From positions 1 to 25,884 of IMG/VR virus record IMGVR_UViG_3300035661_004721: DNA of 25,884 nucleotides. One strand, written 5' to 3'. The notes under the pieces are model-generated. The model ran no database searches, was not told the DNA's origin, and was given only the letters and a program-made list of their open reading frames with translations. This stretch comes from a virus. Below, in pieces: positions 1 through 25,884 of the stretch. Both the position numbers and the translations under genes were made by a program. Each line of letters begins with the position of its first letter. Within the stretch, counting starts at the first letter, position 1.

Positions 1-303
1 ATGCCATTCAGCAACGACGTGATCGGGAAGGTGTGGAGCAAGGCGCAGTATGTGAGCCCTGACGCGGATGCCAAGGGATTCCGCAAGGATGCCTGCGGGG
101 CGTGGATTCTCTGGTCAGCGTACGGTGACCGCGACAACCTGTACGGCTGGGAAGTCGACCATATCGTTCCGGTCGCGGCTCGCGGCTCGGACGACTTGAG
201 CAATCTGCAGCCGCTCCACTGGGAGAACAACATGGCCAAGGGGGACAACGCCCGCTTGGTGTGTGCGCTCAGGGGCTCCAACGGCAAGAACGTTCCTGCA
301 TAG
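1..303 (+). CDS. HNH endonuclease, small phage type
   Basis: A 100-residue protein with a complete HNH (beta-beta-alpha metal) nuclease domain. The core is seen at residues 49-82: W50-E51, D53-H54 (general-base histidine in the DHI motif), N68 in SNLQPL, then W74-E75-N76-N77 and K80-G81-D82. Stand-alone HNH proteins of this length are common in phage genomes, often cutting DNA near packaging sites or acting with terminase (family knowledge). The ATG is the first base of the window, so its ribosome site cannot be seen; the length fits the family, so the gene is probably complete. It is on the plus strand, opposite the late genes, and is followed 12 nt after its stop by a strong terminator hairpin. 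The exact substrate is unknown. Confidence 0.85.
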   Translation: MPFSNDVIGKVWSKAQYVSPDADAKGFRKDACGAWILWSAYGDRDNLYGWEVDHIVPVAARGSDDLSNLQPLHWENNMAKGDNARLVCALRGSNGKNVPA

Positions 304-1866: not shown

Positions 1867-2576
1867 CGCGCCACCCCGCCGCTCATGCTGACCAGCGCGG
1901 AGGCCACCGCGTCAGGGGTGAGGTTCGATGCCGTGGCGATCTCGACGGCGGTCGGGGTCGCCGTGACCGTCGGCAGGTCCGCGACCGCGACCTCCACCGC
2001 GATACCGAGCCGCTGCTCGAGCTGGGCGTCGGTCATGCCCAGCGAGATGTGGAACGCGCCCCATCCCTGATTGCGCAGCCAGTCGAGCGACGCGGCCCGC
2101 GCGGCGTCGGCCGCCTTCTTCTGAGCTTCCGGGTCGAGCTTGCCGTCGGGACCTCGCAGCGCGGGCGCGACGGTCTGCTCGATGAGCAGCGCGCCGACGC
2201 GGCCGGCGTCCAGGATGGCCAGGCCGAAGTGACGAATGCGGCCCTGCTTCAGGTGGCTCCAGAGCTGGGCGAGGCCCCAGAAGATGGCGCCGGTGATGGC
2301 CGTCAGCAGCGGCAGCGCGTAGGGCAGGAGCTGCTCGATGACCCAGCCGATGACGGCCGCCGAGGCCGCGCCGCCCAGGGCCGACGGGCTCGCGGGGGCA
2401 GGGGCAGGCAGGCTCTCGACCGCGGCGACGATGGATGGCGGGAAGTAGCCGGGCTGGTAGAGCGCCTGCCTGGCGGGCTCGTGTGGCGACGCGAGCGCCA
2501 GCACAGGGAGGACCGTCACGGCGGCAAGCAGGCCGCCCAGAAGCAGGGCCGCGACGTCGCGGAGGAAGATGCGCAT
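1863..2576 (-). CDS. Holin-like membrane protein (LLH-type holin candidate)
   Basis: A 237-residue membrane protein. Residues 7-30 form an N-terminal hydrophobic segment, 31-68 a Pro/Ala-rich linker, and 70-106 one or two transmembrane helices. The stretch 125-170, with RVGALLIEQTVAPALRG followed by KKAADAARAASLDWLRNQG, resembles the cytoplasmic part of LLH-family phage holins. The C-terminus (180-237) is soluble with a repeated Asp/Thr-rich helix pattern. It is larger than most holins, so a regulator or tail-spike-like membrane protein is not excluded. GGAG lies 7 nt before the ATG. It overlaps the next lysis gene by 4 bp. Confidence 0.6.
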   Translation of the reverse strand: MRIFLRDVAALLLGGLLAAVTVLPVLALASPHEPARQALYQPGYFPPSIVAAVESLPAPAPASPSALGGAASAAVIGWVIEQLLPYALPLLTAITGAIFWGLAQLWSHLKQGRIRHFGLAILDAGRVGALLIEQTVAPALRGPDGKLDPEAQKKAADAARAASLDWLRNQGWGAFHISLGMTDAQLEQRLGIAVEVAVADLPTVTATPTAVEIATASNLTPDAVASALVSMSGGVAR

Positions 2577-2642
2577 AGAGGACTCCAGCGTGGGGTGGTT
2601 GCCATGCGCGCCGAGCCCCCACGAGCCCGAAGCGCGGGAAGC

Positions 2643-2984
2643 TCAGTGGAAGAGGAAGCGCAGCAGGACACCGCCAGCGGTCACCAGTAAGAACCCCGCG
2701 CCCGCCCAGCCGCGCCAGGAGTTCATCTGGGCTCGCAGCTCCAGCAGCGCCTGGTCGACGCCCTTGCGCCACTCGGCAGCCTCGCCCAACGCCCGGCTAT
2801 GGTCGGCGACGTGCGAGCCGAGCCGCTCGGCGAAGACCGCCAGGTCGCGCCCGGTGCCGCTCTGGGCCGCGCCGACGGCGTCGACCTTCGCGGAGAGCTC
2901 GCCCACGCGCTGGCCCACTCCGCCGACCTGGGCGGAGAGGTTCGTCAGTGCGAGGAGCACGGGGTCGTTCGAGGTCGGTGGCAT
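2643..2984 (-). CDS. Coiled-coil protein with C-terminal TM, XhlA/holin-associated type
   Basis: A 113-residue protein: heptad-rich helix at about 10-85 (LLALTNLSAQVGGVGQRV, then similar), followed by one transmembrane helix at about 92-111 ending RFLFH. This plan is that of XhlA-like (hemolysin-type) proteins that work with a holin and endolysin, and the gene heads the lysis module. The ATG at 2984 is preferred because GGAAGG lies just before it; the ATG at 2996 has GGAG only one base upstream. Both are closely spaced. The late motif at 3009-3020 is 24 nt from the first and 12 nt from the second, unlike the fixed 20 nt seen elsewhere. Confidence 0.6.
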   Translation of the reverse strand: MPPTSNDPVLLALTNLSAQVGGVGQRVGELSAKVDAVGAAQSGTGRDLAVFAERLGSHVADHSRALGEAAEWRKGVDQALLELRAQMNSWRGWAGAGFLLVTAGGVLLRFLFH

Positions 2985-3008
2985 GGACCTTCCCATGCTC
3001 CGCGCAAG

Positions 3009-3020
3009 AATTTTCGCAGG
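3009..3020 (-). promoter_or_regulatory. Late motif copy 5 (lysis module)
   Basis: Minus-strand CCTGCGAAAATT, one change from the consensus CCTGCGGAAATT. It precedes the lysis genes immediately after the opposing + strand pair 3095-4105. It lies 12 nt from the ATG at 2996 and 24 nt from that at 2984. A perfect 6-bp dyad (CTCGTC/GACGAG, 3021-3034) touches it. Confidence 0.5.
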
Positions 3021-3034
3021 CTCGTCAGGACGAG
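3021..3034. promoter_or_regulatory. 6-bp dyad in the divergent intergenic region
   Basis: CTCGTC AG GACGAG is a perfect inverted repeat between the divergent lysis genes and the GhoS-like gene at 3095. It may be a small operator controlling either side. A weak sigma-70-like pair for the + gene, TTGGCA at 3054-3059 and TCTAAC at 3078-3083 (18 bp apart), lies just downstream. Confidence 0.3.
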
Positions 3035-3094
3035 GAAGCCACGGCGTCCCCGATTGGCAACGCGACCCGCTGTTGTCTCTAACCGAGGAAACCC

Positions 3095-3442
3095 ATGACG
3101 ATCTTCAACGTACGGATTCAACTTCCAGGCTCTCCGGCTGCCGAAGTCTACGAGCGGCTGCACGTCGCCATGAAGGCTGAAGGCTTTGAGCGGGAAATCA
3201 CGCTTGACGATGAGAAGCTCTATCGCCTGCCACACGGTGAGTACATCTACGTGACGTCTGGAACACCAATCTTCGGTTTTGACGACGTATGGGAAAAGGC
3301 GTGCCGCGGCGCCGCTACCGTTTCACCCAACGCAACAGTCCGCCTCTCCGAAACCTCTCACTCGATGTTTGCCAATCTTGAAGAGGTTGTGACTGCCCCA
3401 GCCGTGCCCTTGCTCAAGATGCCCCCATTCCGGCGGCGATAG
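3095..3442 (+). CDS. GhoS/DUF2622-like small protein, copy 1
   Basis: A 115-residue protein. The pattern FNVRIQL (residues 4-10), Y-x-x-L-H-x-x-M-x-x-x-G-F (19-31), Y-R-L-P-H-G-E-Y (43-50), then a helix WEKACRGAA and strand VRLSET, fits the ferredoxin-like DUF2622 family, which includes GhoS, the endoribonuclease antitoxin of the type V GhoT/GhoS pair (family knowledge). Assignment is by eye and moderate. No GhoT-like small membrane toxin is next to it. SD GAGGA lies 5 nt before the ATG. About 60 of 97 aligned residues match the second copy (3770-4105). It is transcribed against the late genes and closed by its own terminator, as a moron would be. Confidence 0.6.
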   Translation: MTIFNVRIQLPGSPAAEVYERLHVAMKAEGFEREITLDDEKLYRLPHGEYIYVTSGTPIFGFDDVWEKACRGAATVSPNATVRLSETSHSMFANLEEVVTAPAVPLLKMPPFRRR

Positions 3443-3470
3443 GCGCTCCTGCCAGCCCATCACCACGAGG

Positions 3471-3505
3471 CAAAGGCCCGCTCAAGGTGAGCGGGCCTTT
3501 GCTTT
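3471..3505 (+). terminator. Intrinsic terminator after the first GhoS-like gene
   Basis: Arms CAAAGGCCCGCTCA (3471-3484) and TGAGCGGGCCTTTG (3488-3501) pair perfectly over a 3-nt loop and are followed by CTTTT. The A-run and T-run allow action on both strands. It is absent from copy 2 of the duplication. Confidence 0.88.
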
Positions 3506-3728
3506 TGATGGCTACTGCGTTGGGCAACTCGCCGGCCACGAGCTGGCGCCAGCGAGCTCGACACATGGCTTTCCGGCGCCCCCATAGCCAGCTCAAGCCC
3601 TGGACCCGAGCGTCACGCCCGCGGCGCGGGCAGGCTCCCTCCATCGCCATTGAGCATGCAGGAGACGTATTGCGCGGGCGCAGGCCCAGGCTGCAGTCAG
3701 GGACCCGGCAACCTCTGCGTCCCACTAC

Positions 3729-4180
3729 GGCAAGACGACCCCGCTGGCACTACTCAACAAGAAAAATCAATGACCTTCTTCAACGTGCGGATTCAGCTCC
3801 CGGGCTCTCCATCCACTGCAACCTATGACCTGCTGCACGCCGAGATGGAAGCCGAGGGGTTTTCACGCTTGGCGCGGGCCAACGACAACAAGGTCTTTCG
3901 CCTGCCACATGGTGAGTATCTCTATTCGACCTCCGGAACGCCCCCGTTTGCCTTTGAGGACATCTGGCAGAAGGCGTGTCGAGCCGCGACCAAGGTCTCG
4001 CCCCAGGCGGCCGTCCGTCTCTCCGAAACCGTCCAGACGATGTTCATCAACCTCGAAGAGGTTCCTCCGGCGCGGTCGTTCCCAGACATCGTCATCATGG
4101 GATAGGGCCACGCCCCGTCCGGCATCTCGTTGGCCACGAGGTGATGCCAGCGAGCTTGAGCAGGGCTTTCCGATGCACGC
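3729..4180 (+). repeat. Tandem duplication unit, copy 2
   Basis: Second unit: upstream homology GGCAAGACGACCCCGCTGG at 3729-3747, the gene 3770-4105, and the noncoding tail 4121-4180, which matches 3523-3580 at roughly three quarters of positions and can fold (GGCATC/GATGCC with CGT/ACG). The 3581-3728 stretch between the units contains no convincing gene. Confidence 0.65.
3770..4105 (+). CDS. GhoS/DUF2622-like small protein, copy 2
   Basis: A 111-residue paralogue of 3095-3442. FNVRIQLPGSP, the LH..M.AEGF.R block, FRLPHGEYLYSTSGTP and VRLSETVQTMF.NLEEV are kept; the C-terminus after residue 97 and the segment 33-41 differ. The start is the ATG at 3770, where similarity to copy 1 begins and an AAGAAA stretch precedes; a reading frame open upstream to 3650 is not supported. 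No terminator follows it, so its transcript runs into the convergent tail-fibre gene ending at 4193. Two diverged copies side by side suggest either different targets or a toxin/antitoxin-like pair, but nothing in the sequence decides this. Confidence 0.6.
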   Translation: MTFFNVRIQLPGSPSTATYDLLHAEMEAEGFSRLARANDNKVFRLPHGEYLYSTSGTPPFAFEDIWQKACRAATKVSPQAAVRLSETVQTMFINLEEVPPARSFPDIVIMG

Positions 4181-4192
4181 CAGGCCAGCGGC

Positions 4193-4633
4193 TCATACCA
4201 AGAAGCTGACGCCGTCGAGCGAGATCAGGTTGTTGGCGCCCACGGTGGGCACGACCGTGCCCGTCGAGGCGACCTCGACCATGCCGTAGATGTTCGCCGC
4301 GCCGTTGTAGCTGGCCACCGCGAACTGGTGGTTTTTGGCAGGCCGGAAGCCGGCCGCCAGCGTGAAGGCCGAGGCTCCCATGGTGCCGCTCTTGATGCTA
4401 CCTTGCAGCCATACGCGGCCGAATGGGTCGAGGTAGTAGCCCGCGTTCTCGTAGACAGGGCCGCCACCCACGAAGTTGACCCAGCTGTTCGTGAAGGTGG
4501 GCGTCTGCAGCGAAACGAACGTGCCCGAGCCGGAGCCAAAGGCGAGGCTCGCCGCGCCGGTGCCCGTCGAGTAGAGCAGTTGCTTGGCGGCCGTGGGGGC
4601 GGCCCCTGCGGCGTAGAAGTCGAGGACTGGCAT
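4193..4633 (-). CDS. Tail fibre / receptor-binding tip protein
   Basis: A 146-residue protein rich in Gly, Ser, Thr and aromatic residues. Residues 49-62 (NSWVNFVGGGPVYE), GRVWLQGSIKSG at 72-83, and FTLAAGFRPA at 90-99 are the usual pattern of small C-terminal fibre domains (a 'LPAGFRP' type beta domain), ending with a hydrophobic strand LDGVSFLV. Such proteins form the distal adsorption device. It follows the tail hub gene by 12 nt, with AAGGAG as its ribosome site. It is the last gene of the tail module and meets the + strand moron tail to tail. Confidence 0.75.
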   Translation of the reverse strand: MPVLDFYAAGAAPTAAKQLLYSTGTGAASLAFGSGSGTFVSLQTPTFTNSWVNFVGGGPVYENAGYYLDPFGRVWLQGSIKSGTMGASAFTLAAGFRPAKNHQFAVASYNGAANIYGMVEVASTGTVVPTVGANNLISLDGVSFLV

Positions 4634-20205: not shown

Positions 20206-20787
20206 GTGACCGCAAAGGGGTCGGAGTTGCCTTCCATCGACGACCGGATCATCGAGTTGTCAAGTCAGGACGTCAACCGCGTCCGTGACGGGGACCGTGC
20301 GGGCATCCTGGAGCGGGTGCGTATTGGGCCGTTCAAGAGGAACCCAACGCAAACGGCCGAGAGGTGGGAGGATGAAGATTACCCCGTCATCGGACAGCTC
20401 CACTCCGAGACGGGAGAGGCGGTTAAGCCTACAGACTCCTTCAACAATCTTATCGCCCATGCAATCAAACACACCGCTGATGGAGGATTTCGCCAAGGAA
20501 CCACTTCGGCGCAATACTTGGCGAACATCAAGGCCATCGTGGGGCACCCTCAAGTGCTCGTGAAGGTGGGAATCAGCAACAGAGGGGACCCGTGCGCCAC
20601 TTTGATGGCTATGATTCCTTATGTAGCGTTCCCCGACTTGCGGCCTCCATCAGCCCCCCCGTGTAGTCTCTTCGTGGTATACGCGCCGAAACAAAGCAGC
20701 ATCGTTAGTGGTTACGTGATCAACAACGCGTCGATGACCGACCTGTACAAGACCTGGAAACGAACCCCTTTCCTGGTGAAAAAATGA
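20206..20787 (+). CDS. Unknown moron protein A, first gene of the three-gene cassette
   Basis: A 193-residue protein of no family I can name. Visible features: an acidic and charged N-terminal 80 residues, then SFNNLIAHAIKHTADGGFRQ with AQYLANIKAIVGHPQVLVKV, and a C-terminal FVVYAPKQSSIVSGYVINN followed by KTWKRTPFLVKK. The spaced KH, K-VG and SGYVIN elements recall the layout of BECR-fold RNase toxins, but this is a guess. The codon use is visibly more AT-rich than the late genes, a sign of transfer. The start is uncertain: GTG 20206 has only weak upstream signals. The stop overlaps the next ATG (ATGA). Confidence 0.6.
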   Translation: MTAKGSELPSIDDRIIELSSQDVNRVRDGDRAGILERVRIGPFKRNPTQTAERWEDEDYPVIGQLHSETGEAVKPTDSFNNLIAHAIKHTADGGFRQGTTSAQYLANIKAIVGHPQVLVKVGISNRGDPCATLMAMIPYVAFPDLRPPSAPPCSLFVVYAPKQSSIVSGYVINNASMTDLYKTWKRTPFLVKK

Positions 20788-21239
20788 GCTCCCGCCTCGA
20801 AGTCCAGAACAACTACTTCCTCCAGTCCTACAGCGGCTCCGTGGCCCGCATGCTGCGGTTGCTGCCAGAGCTCTCTCGTCCGGCCTCCGCCGGGCGCTCG
20901 CCTCTGCTTGAGGACCCCGAGGATTCGCTCGAGGACAAGCGCGCCCGCGTTGGTGACGCCCTTCTGTTGACCCTGGTTCGCCGGCTGGAGTTCTTGAACA
21001 CGGCTGAGAATCGCTACTCGGCGCTGTTCAACCTGATGGTCACCGATTGGTTGCTGCGCTTGAACAAGGCCGCCATCAAAGAGGTCTTGTCGGTAGACGT
21101 CGACAAGATGATGGAGGCGCAAGGGGAGTTGCCTGCTTGCGTGGCGCCATCCATCCGCGTGTTTGACGGGTGGAGCACGTCTCAGGCGGCTACGCCCGAC
21201 GAGGCTCGGGACGAGGTCCGGTTGGCGGTGGCAGCCTGA
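20784..21239 (+). CDS. Unknown helical moron protein B
   Basis: A 151-residue, almost fully helical protein: MSSRLEVQNNYFLQSYSGSV, DALLLTLVRRLEFLNTAENR, YSALFNLMVTDWLLRLNKAA and an acidic C-terminal helix. Family unknown. The ATG overlaps the stop of protein A by 4 bp and its stop overlaps the start of protein C (TGATG), so all three are one translational unit. GGTGA lies 5 nt before the start. If A is a toxin, B sits where an immunity or partner protein would; the sequence does not prove this. Confidence 0.6.
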   Translation: MSSRLEVQNNYFLQSYSGSVARMLRLLPELSRPASAGRSPLLEDPEDSLEDKRARVGDALLLTLVRRLEFLNTAENRYSALFNLMVTDWLLRLNKAAIKEVLSVDVDKMMEAQGELPACVAPSIRVFDGWSTSQAATPDEARDEVRLAVAA

Positions 21240-21694
21240 TGCCCACTCGGATCGCCACGATGCTTGCCGAAGGTGTTGCCTTCGACCAGACGAGTGGCGG
21301 TCGAGTGACTGTCTTCAACGCTCTCGACTTCGTGATCGTCCAGAAGTTTCCCGCGAAGATGCCGAAGCTGATCGTGGTTTCGACCTACGCCATCGGGAAA
21401 GATGCTGAGCTGTTCACGGAGCGCCTGACCATCACCAGCCCTTCGGGGAAGGTGGTTGTGGATACGGCGCTCCACGTGTCGATCGTTGGTCGTATGGTTG
21501 GCAGCCCACAAACCACCCACAAGGTCATTCATCCGCTCTGGCACGTCGAGTTCGACGTGATGGGTGACTACAGGGTCCAGGTTCAACACGCGCCTATGGG
21601 TTCAACGACGTGGGTCGAATCAGCCTCGTGGAACATCGCGGCCATCGCGGGGCAATACGAGTTCTTCCCGCGCCCGAACTCCAAGCCAGGCTGA
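21239..21694 (+). CDS. Beta-sandwich protein C (DUF6941-like)
   Basis: A 151-residue beta protein. It opens TRIATMLAEGVAFDQTSGGR and VTVFNALDFVIVQKFPAKMP, a pattern like DUF6941-type proteins ('...AE.....G...ifGA...i....FP...p.l.vv...'), then IVVSTYAIGKDAELFTERLT, ITSPSGKVV and HPLWHVEFDVMGDYRVQV. Such proteins form an immunoglobulin-like fold of unknown role. The ATG at 21239 shares its A with the upstream TGA. The stop is only 4 bp from the terL stop on the other strand, so no terminator separates them and both transcripts must overlap. Confidence 0.62.
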   Translation: MPTRIATMLAEGVAFDQTSGGRVTVFNALDFVIVQKFPAKMPKLIVVSTYAIGKDAELFTERLTITSPSGKVVVDTALHVSIVGRMVGSPQTTHKVIHPLWHVEFDVMGDYRVQVQHAPMGSTTWVESASWNIAAIAGQYEFFPRPNSKPG

Positions 21695-21698
21695 AAAG

Positions 21699-23453
21699 TC
21701 ACACCACCCAAACCTTCGGCGTGAGCGCCATCCGCGCGAGGGCCTGGCTTGTGGTGTCGACTTGGTCATCGTGCGCGCCCTTCGGGAAGCAGCCGAACTC
21801 CTCCAGGTAGTCCTTCACCCATGGCGCGTTCTCGGGCAACGGGATGAGGACGTCCCCGGCCTCGATGAGCGGCGCGATGGCAGTGGCCCGTTGCTCCTTG
21901 CTGTCCTCGGGCGTGATGGGCACCAAGCCGCTGATCTGGCCCTCCAACATGCGGATGACGTTGGGGCCGTTGGCCTTGTCCTCGACCAACTTCGCGGTCG
22001 CCCTGGGCCAGCGGAGCGTCAGGTTGCGCACCGCTTCGATGCACGCGGGCAGCGCCATGCGGTCGCGCACCTGGTCGAGCAGGAAGTAGCGCGTGCCCTT
22101 ATGGCCCCAGACCTCGCCGACGGCGAAGTCAGCGCCGCTCGTGTCCTTGACGGCGAAGTCCCAGCTCTGGAGTTGCTCGAGGTCGTCGAGAAGGTCGGGC
22201 AGGACGATGGTGCGCGCGCGGATGTCTTCGTCGCGCGGCTCGGGCTGCCAGCTCCGCCGCCAGAAGCGCCACCACTTCGGGCTGAAGAGCAGCCCGCCGG
22301 GCGGCTTGGGGCGCTGGTTGTACTGGGCCTCGTAGGCGGCGCTGCCCATGCCGACCTTCTCGGCGTCGAGGACCTCACGCGGCAGGCGCTCCGGGAAGAG
22401 CAGCTCGCCCTCGACGGTGCGCGGGTCGAGCGACCGCCCCAGCGCGGTGAGGTTGGACTCGGCTTGCTTTGGGTCGTACTCCGCCGGCAGCGACAGGCGG
22501 TTCCACTGCTTCGCGGTTTCCGCGTTCGCGAGCAGGTGACCGCTCAGGTCGTCTTGGTGAACGCGCTGCTGGATGATGACCCGCACGCTCAGGCGCAGGT
22601 CGTTCACGCGCGACTTCGCCGCGGCGTCCCACCACTCGTTCACCGCGTCGCGCTCGGCTCGCGACTGGCTGAGCTTGGCGTCGTTCGGGTCGTCTACGAA
22701 GAGCGCGTCGGAGCGGTCGCCGGTGATGCGCGCCTTTGCGCCGATGGCGAGCCGCTGGCCGCCGCGTGTGTTGCGGAAGAGGCTTTTGGCGTTCTGGTCC
22801 TTCGCCATCTCCCAGTCTTTGATCTTGTTGAGCTTGCCCTGCGTGGGCCCGAGCCGCCACGCAGGCGCGAAGGTCTGCGTGTACCAGGGCGACTCGATGA
22901 GCCGCCGGCAGAAGTCGCTGTCGCGCAGCGCCACGCGCGGGTTGGTCGAGATGTACGTCACTCGCCAGTCGGGGCAGTGGAGCCACATCCAGGCCGGCGC
23001 GTAGACGCAGAGCGCCCGGCTCTTCATCGTGCCAGGCGGGACGTTGACGAGGACGTTCTGCCAGAGGTGCGGCCGCTGCTCAGCGCGAGCGCGGCGCCAC
23101 TCGGTCAGGAGTTCCTGGACCAGATCACACAGCGAGTCGAGGTGCCAGTTCCAGGTGAGCGGCGTCGACGGCTCCAGCGCGCTCCAACCGCGGCGGAGGA
23201 ACTCCTTCAGCGAGCGGGTGCAGATCTCGGCGACCACCTGCTCGCGCGAGGGCATCCGCAGCATCCACGAGAGGCCACGCGCGTTGAGCTGCGCCTGCAC
23301 CGCTGAGGTGCGCGGGGGTGTCGGGAGCGAGGCGATTTCCTCGAGCCAGGCTAGCTGCTCGGCGTCGGCGCGCCCGAGTTCAACGCGCGGCGAGTCCTTG
23401 CCGCGCGCGAGGAGCAACTCAGCGTGAGCGATGCGAGAGGCGAGCCCGCTCAT
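21699..23453 (-). CDS. terL: Terminase large subunit
   Basis: A 584-residue packaging motor. The ATPase domain has an adenine-side helix region, Walker A NVPPGTMKS at 137-145 and Walker B ALFVDDPN at 250-257. Coupling motif is likely near RVIIQQRVHQDDL (291-303). The nuclease domain has D432 in SWDFAVKD, E491 in LVEDKANG, and D562-D563 in GAHDDQVD, the usual acid set of RNase H-like terminases. It docks on the portal and cuts DNA. The ATG overlaps the small subunit stop by 4 bp. On the other side it meets the + strand cassette tail to tail. Confidence 0.96.
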   Translation of the reverse strand: MSGLASRIAHAELLLARGKDSPRVELGRADAEQLAWLEEIASLPTPPRTSAVQAQLNARGLSWMLRMPSREQVVAEICTRSLKEFLRRGWSALEPSTPLTWNWHLDSLCDLVQELLTEWRRARAEQRPHLWQNVLVNVPPGTMKSRALCVYAPAWMWLHCPDWRVTYISTNPRVALRDSDFCRRLIESPWYTQTFAPAWRLGPTQGKLNKIKDWEMAKDQNAKSLFRNTRGGQRLAIGAKARITGDRSDALFVDDPNDAKLSQSRAERDAVNEWWDAAAKSRVNDLRLSVRVIIQQRVHQDDLSGHLLANAETAKQWNRLSLPAEYDPKQAESNLTALGRSLDPRTVEGELLFPERLPREVLDAEKVGMGSAAYEAQYNQRPKPPGGLLFSPKWWRFWRRSWQPEPRDEDIRARTIVLPDLLDDLEQLQSWDFAVKDTSGADFAVGEVWGHKGTRYFLLDQVRDRMALPACIEAVRNLTLRWPRATAKLVEDKANGPNVIRMLEGQISGLVPITPEDSKEQRATAIAPLIEAGDVLIPLPENAPWVKDYLEEFGCFPKGAHDDQVDTTSQALARMALTPKVWVV

Positions 23454-23878
23454 TCCGTGAGCCCCTTCTCCTTCATCGCGCTCTCAATGAGCTGCAGGCG
23501 CGTCTGCATGTCGTCCGTCTCGTGGAGCCTCACCGCCAGATCGACCAGGCGCGCGGCCGCGGCGAGCCGGACCGAGGGCTCTGCGTCGGGGTCGTCGGCG
23601 ATGGCGCGGATGATCTTCACGGCCGCGATGCTGTGAGCCCAGAGGTCGTCCGCCAGCTCGCGCACCTGGTCGCGCCGGTAGTCCAGCAGCGCCGTCAGAA
23701 TTTCCGGGTGCTCATCGAGGCGCTGGGCGAGTGCCTGACGCGAGATGCCCAGCGCCTTCGCCGCATCGACCCGCCGCGGGCTCGCAATGAGCGCCTGCAG
23801 CGTCGCGAGTTCCTTCTCTCCGAGGTCGCCCAGGAGGGCGAGGTCCAGCTCAGCGGGCACAATCTCGTGCGGGGCCAT
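23450..23878 (-). CDS. terS: Terminase small subunit
   Basis: A 142-residue helical protein. A helix-turn-helix is seen at about 31-57 (ASPRRVDAAKALGISRQALA), then an oligomerisation helical part (EPSVRLAAAARLVDLAVRLH). This fits small terminase subunits that bind the packaging site and load TerL. It is directly upstream of terL with a 4-bp overlap. ATG 23878 is exactly 20 nt from late motif copy 4 and lacks a clear Shine-Dalgarno. Confidence 0.85.
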   Translation of the reverse strand: MAPHEIVPAELDLALLGDLGEKELATLQALIASPRRVDAAKALGISRQALAQRLDEHPEILTALLDYRRDQVRELADDLWAHSIAAVKIIRAIADDPDAEPSVRLAAAARLVDLAVRLHETDDMQTRLQLIESAMKEKGLTE

Positions 23879-23951: not shown

Positions 23952-24554
23952 TCAAGTTGTCGCGGGGGCGGGGCGGGCCGGAACGGGCGCCGGGAACGGC
24001 ATCGCGTATTGATGCCCCGCTGGATATTCATCGCCCTTGATGACCCGCTCCGCATGGCCGAGCTTCCCAGCGATCTCGATGATCCATTCGTCCGCAGTCA
24101 GAAGAACACAATTGCGCGCGATGGCCATGGCCATCAGCATGATGTCAATCCGCATCGCGTTCTTGTCGCTCTTGCGGTTTGGATAGAAGGCGCGAGCTGG
24201 CGGCGCGATGAGTCCAGCGATCTCGGCATCCACAATGCGAAATGCCGCAGTAGCAGTCAGCGACAGGGTCAGTACCTTGTTCACCGCAGTGAACCACTGC
24301 GCATCCTCAAGCTCTGCAACAACCAGCGCAGGGACCTTCAGTCGTAGCCCCTCCTCCTGGCATTTCTCGATCCAGACGCGAATGGCCTTCCGACGATCAT
24401 CCCGGCGCGTGTCGTTCGGGTCGTCACTCAGCATCACGTAGAAGATGCTGGTGTCGACCAACACGGTTTTGGGTTCGGTCGCTGGGAGCTTCGTAAGCCT
24501 GGCCCCAGCAGCCGATTCGACCGACGCGCTCGGTGTCTCTTGTCCTTGGCTCAC
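23952..24554 (-). CDS. PIN-domain nuclease (VapC-like), probable toxin
   Basis: A 200-residue protein with a full PIN acid set: D34 in VLVDTSIFYV, E81 in VVAELED, D137 in RIDIMLMAMA and D155 in LLTADEW. PIN proteins are metal-dependent RNases, often toxins. It is longer than the usual VapC of about 130 residues, with an extra N-terminal tail (1-28) and a Pro-rich C-terminus. The GTG start overlaps the stop of the upstream gene (GTGA, 24554-24551), so the two are coupled; the first gene takes the antitoxin position. Its stop is 41 bp from late motif copy 4. Confidence 0.82.
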   Translation of the reverse strand: MSQGQETPSASVESAAGARLTKLPATEPKTVLVDTSIFYVMLSDDPNDTRRDDRRKAIRVWIEKCQEEGLRLKVPALVVAELEDAQWFTAVNKVLTLSLTATAAFRIVDAEIAGLIAPPARAFYPNRKSDKNAMRIDIMLMAMAIARNCVLLTADEWIIEIAGKLGHAERVIKGDEYPAGHQYAMPFPAPVPARPAPATT

Positions 24555-25327
24555 ACGCCCCCCCCATCCACGTCAGCATCATCTTCCGAGCGGTCGCGAT
24601 CGGAGAGTCGACCCGTCTCAGGAGAAAGTCGGATGTGGTTGCGCGCGAGGTCCTCACGCACCCGGTCGAATGCATCTGCGAGCGGCATCCCGGAGGCATG
24701 CGTCGCCTCCAGCCCACGGAGGAGAACATCCTGCTGCCCGTCCTCGCGGTGGGTCACTTCCAGAAGAAGCACGGCCGGCTCCTCAAACAGCGTGCCGGCA
24801 TGCTTGACGATGTCCTCTTCGACAGCCACATCGAAGGCCTGCTCAGACTCGAGGAGGAACAGGGTCGCTTTGTGGCCGCTCGCCGTCGCCCAGAGCCCCG
24901 TCAGCTTGCCTTCAATTTCAAGTTCTTCTGAGTAAGCCTGAAACTTCTCCGGCTTTGGATCGAGTTGAACGTGCTCACTCTCTGAACCATCCTCGTACTC
25001 AATCCAAACTTGAGTGCCCTGTCTAACGAGGTCGCTTGCTGGCTTGTAGACCGCGGCGGGTAGAGCCGTCCCCCGCGCTGCTTCCATCACGGCCACTCCC
25101 AGCGTCAGCGCAGCGGCCTGAAGCAGCAAAATGACCTTGAGGCTTCCCTCACCAAGACAGTCGATGGAGGGGAGGTCCTTTGTTTCAACCGCAGTAGCTT
25201 TTGCAACCGACTGGACGAACGCACTCACATCTCGAAGTGCCCGAGCGCCAAGATCCAGGCGCGGATGACCCGAGAGCCCATCCGCAGGGAAGCGGAACAC
25301 CAGCCGCTTTGGTTGCTTGTCCAGCAT
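24551..25327 (-). CDS. Unknown partner of the PIN nuclease (antitoxin position)
   Basis: A 258-residue acidic protein. The N-terminal part resembles a widespread unnamed domain: a strand RLVFRFPADGL, a helix ALRDVSAFVQSVAKA and the turn LGEGSLKVILLLQAA at 58-72. The middle and end form a beta-rich segment (QVWIEYEDGSESEHVQL, ELEIEGKLTGLWATASGH) and an acidic disordered tail (SDRDRSEDDADVDGGG). No DNA-binding motif of classical VapB is seen, so if this is an antitoxin it is of an unusual kind. GGAG lies 5-6 nt before the ATG. A 16-bp-arm palindrome stands just upstream (25336-25379). Confidence 0.65.
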   Translation of the reverse strand: MLDKQPKRLVFRFPADGLSGHPRLDLGARALRDVSAFVQSVAKATAVETKDLPSIDCLGEGSLKVILLLQAAALTLGVAVMEAARGTALPAAVYKPASDLVRQGTQVWIEYEDGSESEHVQLDPKPEKFQAYSEELEIEGKLTGLWATASGHKATLFLLESEQAFDVAVEEDIVKHAGTLFEEPAVLLLEVTHREDGQQDVLLRGLEATHASGMPLADAFDRVREDLARNHIRLSPETGRLSDRDRSEDDADVDGGGV

Positions 25328-25335
25328 GAACGCTC

Positions 25336-25379
25336 CAGGGGCAGATCCTATCAGAAGCAGTGCATAGGTTCTGCCCCTG
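25336..25379. promoter_or_regulatory. 16-bp-arm palindrome, probable operator of the PIN operon
   Basis: Arms CAGGGGCAGATCCTAT (25336-25351) and ATAGGTTCTGCCCCTG (25364-25379) match with one mismatch, over a 12-bp centre. It begins 9 bp upstream of the partner-gene start, touching the ribosome site, so it could act as an operator for autoregulation or as an RNA stem controlling translation. No U-run supports a terminator. TTGACT lies upstream as a possible -35, but I see no good -10. Confidence 0.65.
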
Positions 25380-25398: not shown

Positions 25399-25581
25399 TC
25401 AAGACAACCGACCGGCCTTCCAGTCGTGCCTGACGCGCAGGCGGGCAAAGTGGGCGTTCTCGCGGTTGACCTGCTCGACAGTCTTCTCGCCCGACGCGAT
25501 GGCTCGCGCGTCCGCCTCGCGGGTGAGCGCCTTCTGCTGCTGGCGCTCGGCGAAGTCGTAGACGGGCCGGTCGTTGCTCAC
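25399..25581 (-). CDS. Small helical hypothetical protein
   Basis: A 60-residue charged helical protein: DFAERQQQKALTREADARAI, then EQVNRENAHFARLRVRHDWK. Family not recognised. The GTG start at 25581 overlaps the upstream stop (GTGA), and its stop is followed by the gap that holds the PIN operon palindrome. Its place upstream of terminase suggests a late-gene regulator or small accessory protein, without proof. Confidence 0.55.
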   Translation of the reverse strand: MSNDRPVYDFAERQQQKALTREADARAIASGEKTVEQVNRENAHFARLRVRHDWKAGRLS

Positions 25582-25754
25582 GCCTGCACCGATCGGGCGG
25601 CCAGTCGGGCCCGAGCGCGCTTGAGCACGCGACGCGCCTCCGCGCGGATGTCGTCGGGCAGCCCCCGGTCCTCGGCCAGCCGCTCGAGGACGGAGAAAGC
25701 TCCGTCTCGAAGGGTGGCGAGGTCGGCGGCGATGTCAGGGCGGGCACGGGGCAT
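25578..25754 (-). CDS. Small helical hypothetical protein
   Basis: A 58-residue helical protein: MPRARPDIAADLATLRDGAF, SVLERLAEDRGLPDDIRAEA, then a basic end with ARRVLKRARARLAARS. Family not recognised. The start ATG 25754 has GGAG 6 nt upstream in the same GGAGTTTC context as the capsid leader; the frame is open further to 25799 but without a site. Overlaps the next gene by 4 bp. Confidence 0.6.
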   Translation of the reverse strand: MPRARPDIAADLATLRDGAFSVLERLAEDRGLPDDIRAEARRVLKRARARLAARSVQA

Positions 25755-25779
25755 CGAAACTCCGGGGCAGGGCGCGACG

Positions 25780-25884
25780 TCAGCGGTGCAGCAGCTCACG
25801 CAGCGAGACGAGCCGCTCGCGTTCCTTGCGGTTTGGCTCGAGGGCTTCTGCCAGCCCGGGCAGAAGTAGGCTCTCCGGCTCGCC
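25780..25884 (-). CDS. 3' end of a gene cut by the window edge
   Basis: From the right edge the minus strand reads 34 residues (GEPESLLLPGLAEALEPNRK, then ERERLVSLRELLHR) to a TGA at 25782-25780, 25 bp before the next ATG. Codon use and the small coupled neighbours support a real gene. Family cannot be judged. Confidence 0.5.
   Translation of the reverse strand, partial: GEPESLLLPGLAEALEPNRKERERLVSLRELLHR

Follow-up and report, generated by a model that had tools for sequence, protein, structure and literature searches.

The occurrence of a PIN-domain gene and a larger, overlapping partner gene just ahead of the terminase genes in the genome of a tailed phage raises the question of whether the two form a PIN system of a new type, as a preliminary description of this DNA had proposed. 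The window analyzed here is the whole viral record, a linear IMG/VR entry of 25,884 bases. In order of transcription, the minus strand carries two small open reading frames (ORFs), a 71-base gap, the partner gene, the PIN gene, a 73-base gap that follows the PIN stop codon, the putative small terminase gene terS directly downstream, and the large terminase gene terL (Table 1). Genes for a portal, a prohead protease and a putative capsid protein lie past a plus-strand block beyond terL. The location of the pair just before the terminase was borne out, with terL recognized by PF17289 and terS assigned by position, and the coordinates and lengths originally given for both genes were all correct. 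Judged from the sequence, the pair is best read as an accessory module that joins a PIN protein to a partner other than VapB, and as a candidate variant of the PIN two-gene modules in which the partner is an orphan. In its fuller form, to which a probability of roughly 0.4 was assigned, this reading holds that the pair would be an accessory (moron) cassette in which the partner restrains a PIN RNase that is released for exclusion or addiction.

Table 1. Features of the PIN-partner pair and its immediate surroundings; positions are those of the window.
Feature	Position	Strand	Remarks
Two small ORFs, first in transcription order	25578-25799, 25399-25581	-	ORF list
Inverted repeat, candidate operator or mRNA hairpin	25336-25379	.	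16-bp arms, 1 mismatch, 12-bp spacer
Partner's putative GGAG ribosome-binding site	25333-25336	-	From sequence; touches palindrome
Partner gene	24551-25327	-	258 aa, ATG start, pI 4.7; first of pair; orphan
GEGSLKV codons, partner residues 59-65	25133-25153	-	Glycine-serine turn before hydrophobic stretch
Partner residues 63-81	25085-25141	-	Most hydrophobic 19-residue stretch; mean Kyte-Doolittle 2.13
PIN-domain nuclease gene	23952-24554	-	200 aa, GTG start; ORF list
PIN domain proper	24066-24464	-	Pfam PF01850, residues 31-162
D34 codon	24453-24455	-	Motif VLVDTS
E81 codon	24312-24314	-	Motif VVAELE
D137 codon	24144-24146	-	Motif RIDIMLMA
D155 codon	24090-24092	-	Motif LLTADE
Putative small terminase gene terS	23450-23878	-	Assigned by position and a weak HTH match; outside pair
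Large terminase gene terL	21699-23453	-	PF17289 Terminase_6C (Pfam); start of phage late operon; outside pair

The nuclease assignment was upheld on closer inspection. The PIN protein matched PF01850 with 24.4 bits (E 4.7e-5), above the curated Pfam cut-off of 23.6 bits, all four acids stand at the expected motif positions, and a family search also recovered the protein in the record (E 8.4e-7, for one genome). By analogy, it is probably a metal-dependent RNase of VapC-like fold. The partner gene comes first, as had been described, and its stop codon shares the four nucleotides GTGA with the PIN start codon. The arrangement resembles that of type II VapBC systems, whose toxins belong to PF01850: a PIN-fold protein with the acid tetrad, an adjacent upstream gene that overlaps it by 4 nt, would probably be co-transcribed with it and would encode the putative antitoxin, and a promoter-proximal palindrome. 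This partner-first, overlapping organization suggests that the two proteins are produced together and that the partner binds the nuclease. Both the complete acid set with its Pfam match and the antitoxin-like gene order argue for the favored reading. The PIN protein differs from the VapBC toxins in being too divergent to give tblastn matches in phages or plasmids.

The partner departs further from VapBC. It is larger than the nuclease (258 versus 200 amino acids) and acidic, as previously noted, and no match to it was observed in Pfam (up to E 10), PHROGs, NCBIfam, PADLOC or PDB sequences. PIN toxins are known to pair with several antitoxin families beyond VapB, and these carry DNA-binding domains of the HTH, AbrB-like, RHH or MerR-like kinds (PMC2701414), whereas no such domain was detectable in the partner. 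In comparison with VapBC itself, searches of the family libraries detected no DNA-binding family of the RHH, AbrB, Phd, MerR or DUF433 type. The claim that the partner has no VapB-like DNA-binding fold therefore stands as far as known families are concerned, but a DNA-binding fold may still be present, as the AlphaFold2 model, predicted from a single sequence, is unreliable (mean pLDDT 46.6). Single-sequence runs gave pLDDT values of 46.6 and 38.7, too poor for a fold search. This low-confidence model places a helix at residues 63-84, and the most hydrophobic stretch of the protein begins inside GEGSLKV; residues 63-81 could form a helix that spans the membrane or one buried in the protein core. 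For the reading of a partner-held RNase, the acidity of the partner and the precedent of many non-VapB antitoxins count in favor, and its size beyond that of typical type II antitoxins and its lack of a known DNA-binding or antitoxin family count against.

The base composition of the pair is foreign to the phage. Third-position GC is 0.71 in the PIN gene and 0.65 in the partner gene, versus 0.81-0.98 in the minus-strand phage genes measured, a range that includes the two small upstream ORFs, and overall GC drops to 0.60 at 24-25 kb. Third-position GC so far below that of the phage backbone makes the pair look like a late-acquired accessory cassette. A PIN model was also searched against 50 virus records, namely the studied record, 31 with related terminases and 18 with LAPAL genes (considered below), and matched in the studied record only. 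The PIN gene thus looks accessory on this count as well, being found in none of the 31 terminase-related phage records. From both observations, which support the favored reading, we infer that the two genes do not belong to the phage core and represent accessory cargo. The composition also bears on whether the locus is a decayed or chance remnant, in which two unrelated genes came to overlap after insertion and share no function. Such an origin would agree with the fact that no conserved linkage was seen, but it is highly improbable: both frames are fully open, the PIN acids are intact, the overlap is tight, and the two genes share a base composition that differs from that of the phage.

A palindrome had been reported at the ribosome site of the partner gene, and this is correct, since its end reaches one base into the GGAG motif. 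The longest arm within the 71-bp upstream gap is 16 bp, a length reached by none of 2000 dinucleotide shuffles (maximum 13), and as RNA the stretch folds with -39.9 kcal/mol, 4.9 SD below shuffles (z -4.9). The palindrome is single-copy in the record, and no further copy was found in the 173 other loci compared. Three more inverted repeats of this arm length (16 bp), each with no more than one mismatch, are present in the record, at 316-365, 748-781 and 3470-3502, so the PIN unit is not alone in having a strong palindrome and repeats of this kind are by no means rare in the genome. A mobile element of the REP/RAYT type would be expected to recur many times in the host or in related genomes; the palindrome had 0 copies in IMG/VR and in 247 genomes from the phylum to which a Terriglobia metagenome-assembled genome (MAG) belongs. 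Within the scope of these searches neither this identity nor that of a known RNA, for which an Rfam scan of the record gave no match, gained support. A sigma-70 promoter scan found nothing. The palindrome is a candidate operator, but a hairpin in the mRNA would suit its features equally well, as would a site near terS that serves regulation or packaging. Its departure from chance adds to the case for the favored reading.

A different account would have the palindrome, close to terS, act in processing, regulation or packaging, and the pair at work in the infection cycle of the phage itself, for example by processing RNA or by shutting off transcripts of the host or of early genes at the switch from early to late expression. 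The two genes run in the same direction as the late operon and therefore may simply be late-expressed phage genes, a point that weighs against the cassette reading. Their shared strand and position with the terminase-led late genes, and the very stable RNA hairpin beside the ribosome site, are what such a role has in its favor. It is nonetheless unlikely in view of the foreign codon-position GC, the lack of a PIN gene in the 31 terminase-related records and the 73-bp gap that separates the pair from terS.

According to the favored reading, that of a partner-held PIN RNase, a two-gene cassette would have been gained horizontally by a tailed phage and have come to lie immediately ahead of its terminase genes. 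The PIN protein would act as a metal-dependent RNase, and the partner, produced alongside it, would bind it and hold it off until superinfection or loss of the element triggered its release. Once free, the nuclease would attack tRNA or rRNA of the host, with exclusion or addiction as the outcome, and expression would be kept low by the palindrome, serving either as an operator or, beside the ribosome site, as a hairpin. A role in phage exclusion would be consistent with the cargo position of the pair, and phage cargo sites are described as productive places for finding defense genes (PMC9122126). That the pair is a PIN toxin-antitoxin or exclusion system of a new kind is a plausible hypothesis. 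If the partner does control the nuclease, a previously unknown protein family would join the regulators of PIN RNases, and the pair would be a unit for exclusion or addiction that is carried by a phage and distinct from VapBC.

PIN proteins are known to act in phage defense (PMC13092281), which agrees with this reading but also provides its closest competitor. The DS-5 system, found with DefensePredictor, consists of a PIN ribonuclease and an unrelated DUF5830/AcrIF4-like protein, and deletion of that partner abolished defense without releasing toxicity (PMC13092281). This precedent shows that a PIN protein can be paired with an unusual protein in a system other than toxin-antitoxin. By analogy with DS-5, both proteins here may be needed for defense, with the partner serving as a sensor or adaptor, possibly membrane-bound, that activates or recruits the PIN nuclease when infection occurs. 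The pair resembles DS-5 in having two genes, a PIN nuclease and a partner outside the classical antitoxins, and the partner is large with a possible membrane helix, unlike a small antitoxin. It differs in that the partner matched neither DUF5830 nor any other family; its gene order and overlap are also typical of toxin-antitoxin pairs. A DS-5-like unit is possible, although not the likely outcome. We regard as rather doubtful the bolder proposal that this is the first PIN-nuclease conflict system with a large, acidic, possibly membrane-anchored partner of an undescribed family, acting as both sensor and inhibitor in phage-versus-phage exclusion.

The ancestry of the partner was considered in relation to LAPAL, and it could be a distant LAPAL or DUF7946 member recruited to a PIN nuclease. 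LAPAL members were retrieved with a consensus sequence, and NCBIfam assigned the retrieved temperate-phage proteins to LAPAL (NF053583); one of seven members also matched DUF7946 (PF25678). The partner and the LAPAL proteins appear to share the order of strand, helix and strand ending in a GS(F/L) turn, followed by a hydrophobic stretch and a beta-rich C-terminus, and one hhalign run with the N-terminal 115 residues of the partner against the seven members gave the expected register. That run was not significant, however (probability 0.3%, P 0.23), and with a 60-member profile the hhalign probability was at most 0.2% and hmmsearch gave -2.2 bits. An NCBIfam scan of the partner returned no LAPAL match, and none of the 18 LAPAL-carrying phage records has a PIN gene. 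In the absence of significant sequence or profile similarity the partner was not filed under LAPAL, and a common ancestry is very unlikely; it can be reconciled with either a toxin-antitoxin or a DS-5-like mechanism. LAPAL proteins themselves, which are carried near integrases of temperate phages, were seen next to the integrase or close to it in four phages that are unrelated to one another (Listeria vB_LmoS_188, Lactobacillus A2, Bifidobacterium PMBT6 and a Vibrio Tectiliviricetes phage). NCBIfam names them 'putative phage structural protein', and their integrase-side position suggests lysogeny cargo or exclusion and not a structural role.

Relatives of the pair were sought widely. None was found by pattern scans of IMG/VR with the PIN or partner sequences or pieces of them, or by a scan of GTDB genomes with the conserved PIN C-terminus. 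Searches with tblastn of GenBank phages and plasmids gave no match for either protein, and for plasmids none even at E 10; the lack of even chance matches at that level suggests that the tblastn search was stringent. A single terminase sequence found no relatives in IMG/VR, whereas a three-row terminase alignment did. Relatives of terL are at about 30-48% identity; those in Terriglobia and Anaeromyxobacter MAGs, Nostoc and Myxococcus phage Mx4, at 35-48%, are too distant for the host to be named from them. No PIN or partner relative was detected by tblastn in the loci of the terminase relatives. Both proteins lacked relatives among 189-195 genomes of the phylum of the Anaeromyxobacter MAG and 297 genomes of that of the Terriglobia MAG, as did the partner among 179 genomes of the Microbispora phylum and 53 genomes with related terminases. 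Marginal matches were rejected as antisense or unrelated frames (L169, L170 and L172) or, for one PIN match, as lacking the motif when read in the alignment (L173); three others (L171, L174 and L263) are equally weak.

With no relative of either protein, no conserved linkage was seen, which counts against the favored reading of a partner-held RNase. As to the earlier suggestion that a lack of linkage between the two families elsewhere would refute the pair, the result is neither support nor disproof, because the searches, run without a positive control, reach moderately close relatives only. The proposal of a new type of PIN system retains the PIN domain, the overlap, the orphan partner, the foreign composition and the palindrome, but with no second linked pair found in any of the searches it rests on one instance. 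One orphan pair without relatives is a lead and not a system, and its value hinges on a second example or on a toxicity or defense assay.

Two other regions of the record may also be cargo. A plus-strand block of three genes at 20206-21694, between portal and terL, opposes the direction of the late operon and has low GC (third-position GC 0.70-0.83). Its products are 193, 151 and 174 amino acids long, the last with a DUF6941 domain (PF22091, E 3.9e-8); PADLOC and PHROG scans of the block gave no match, and it is likely a second accessory cassette. Plus-strand ORFs at 2569-4289 (203, 115, 113 and 154 amino acids), partly within a low-GC stretch, are a possible third cargo block; a Pfam scan of the 203-, 115- and 154-residue products gave no match. 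At the left contig end, an HNH endonuclease-like ORF (1-303, plus strand; PF01844, E 3.5e-7) is followed by the strong hairpin at 316-365, which ends in CTCTTTTG. The minus-strand ORF at 839-1378 encodes a chitinase class I (GH19-type) protein (PF00182, E 3.8e-10) that is a likely endolysin.
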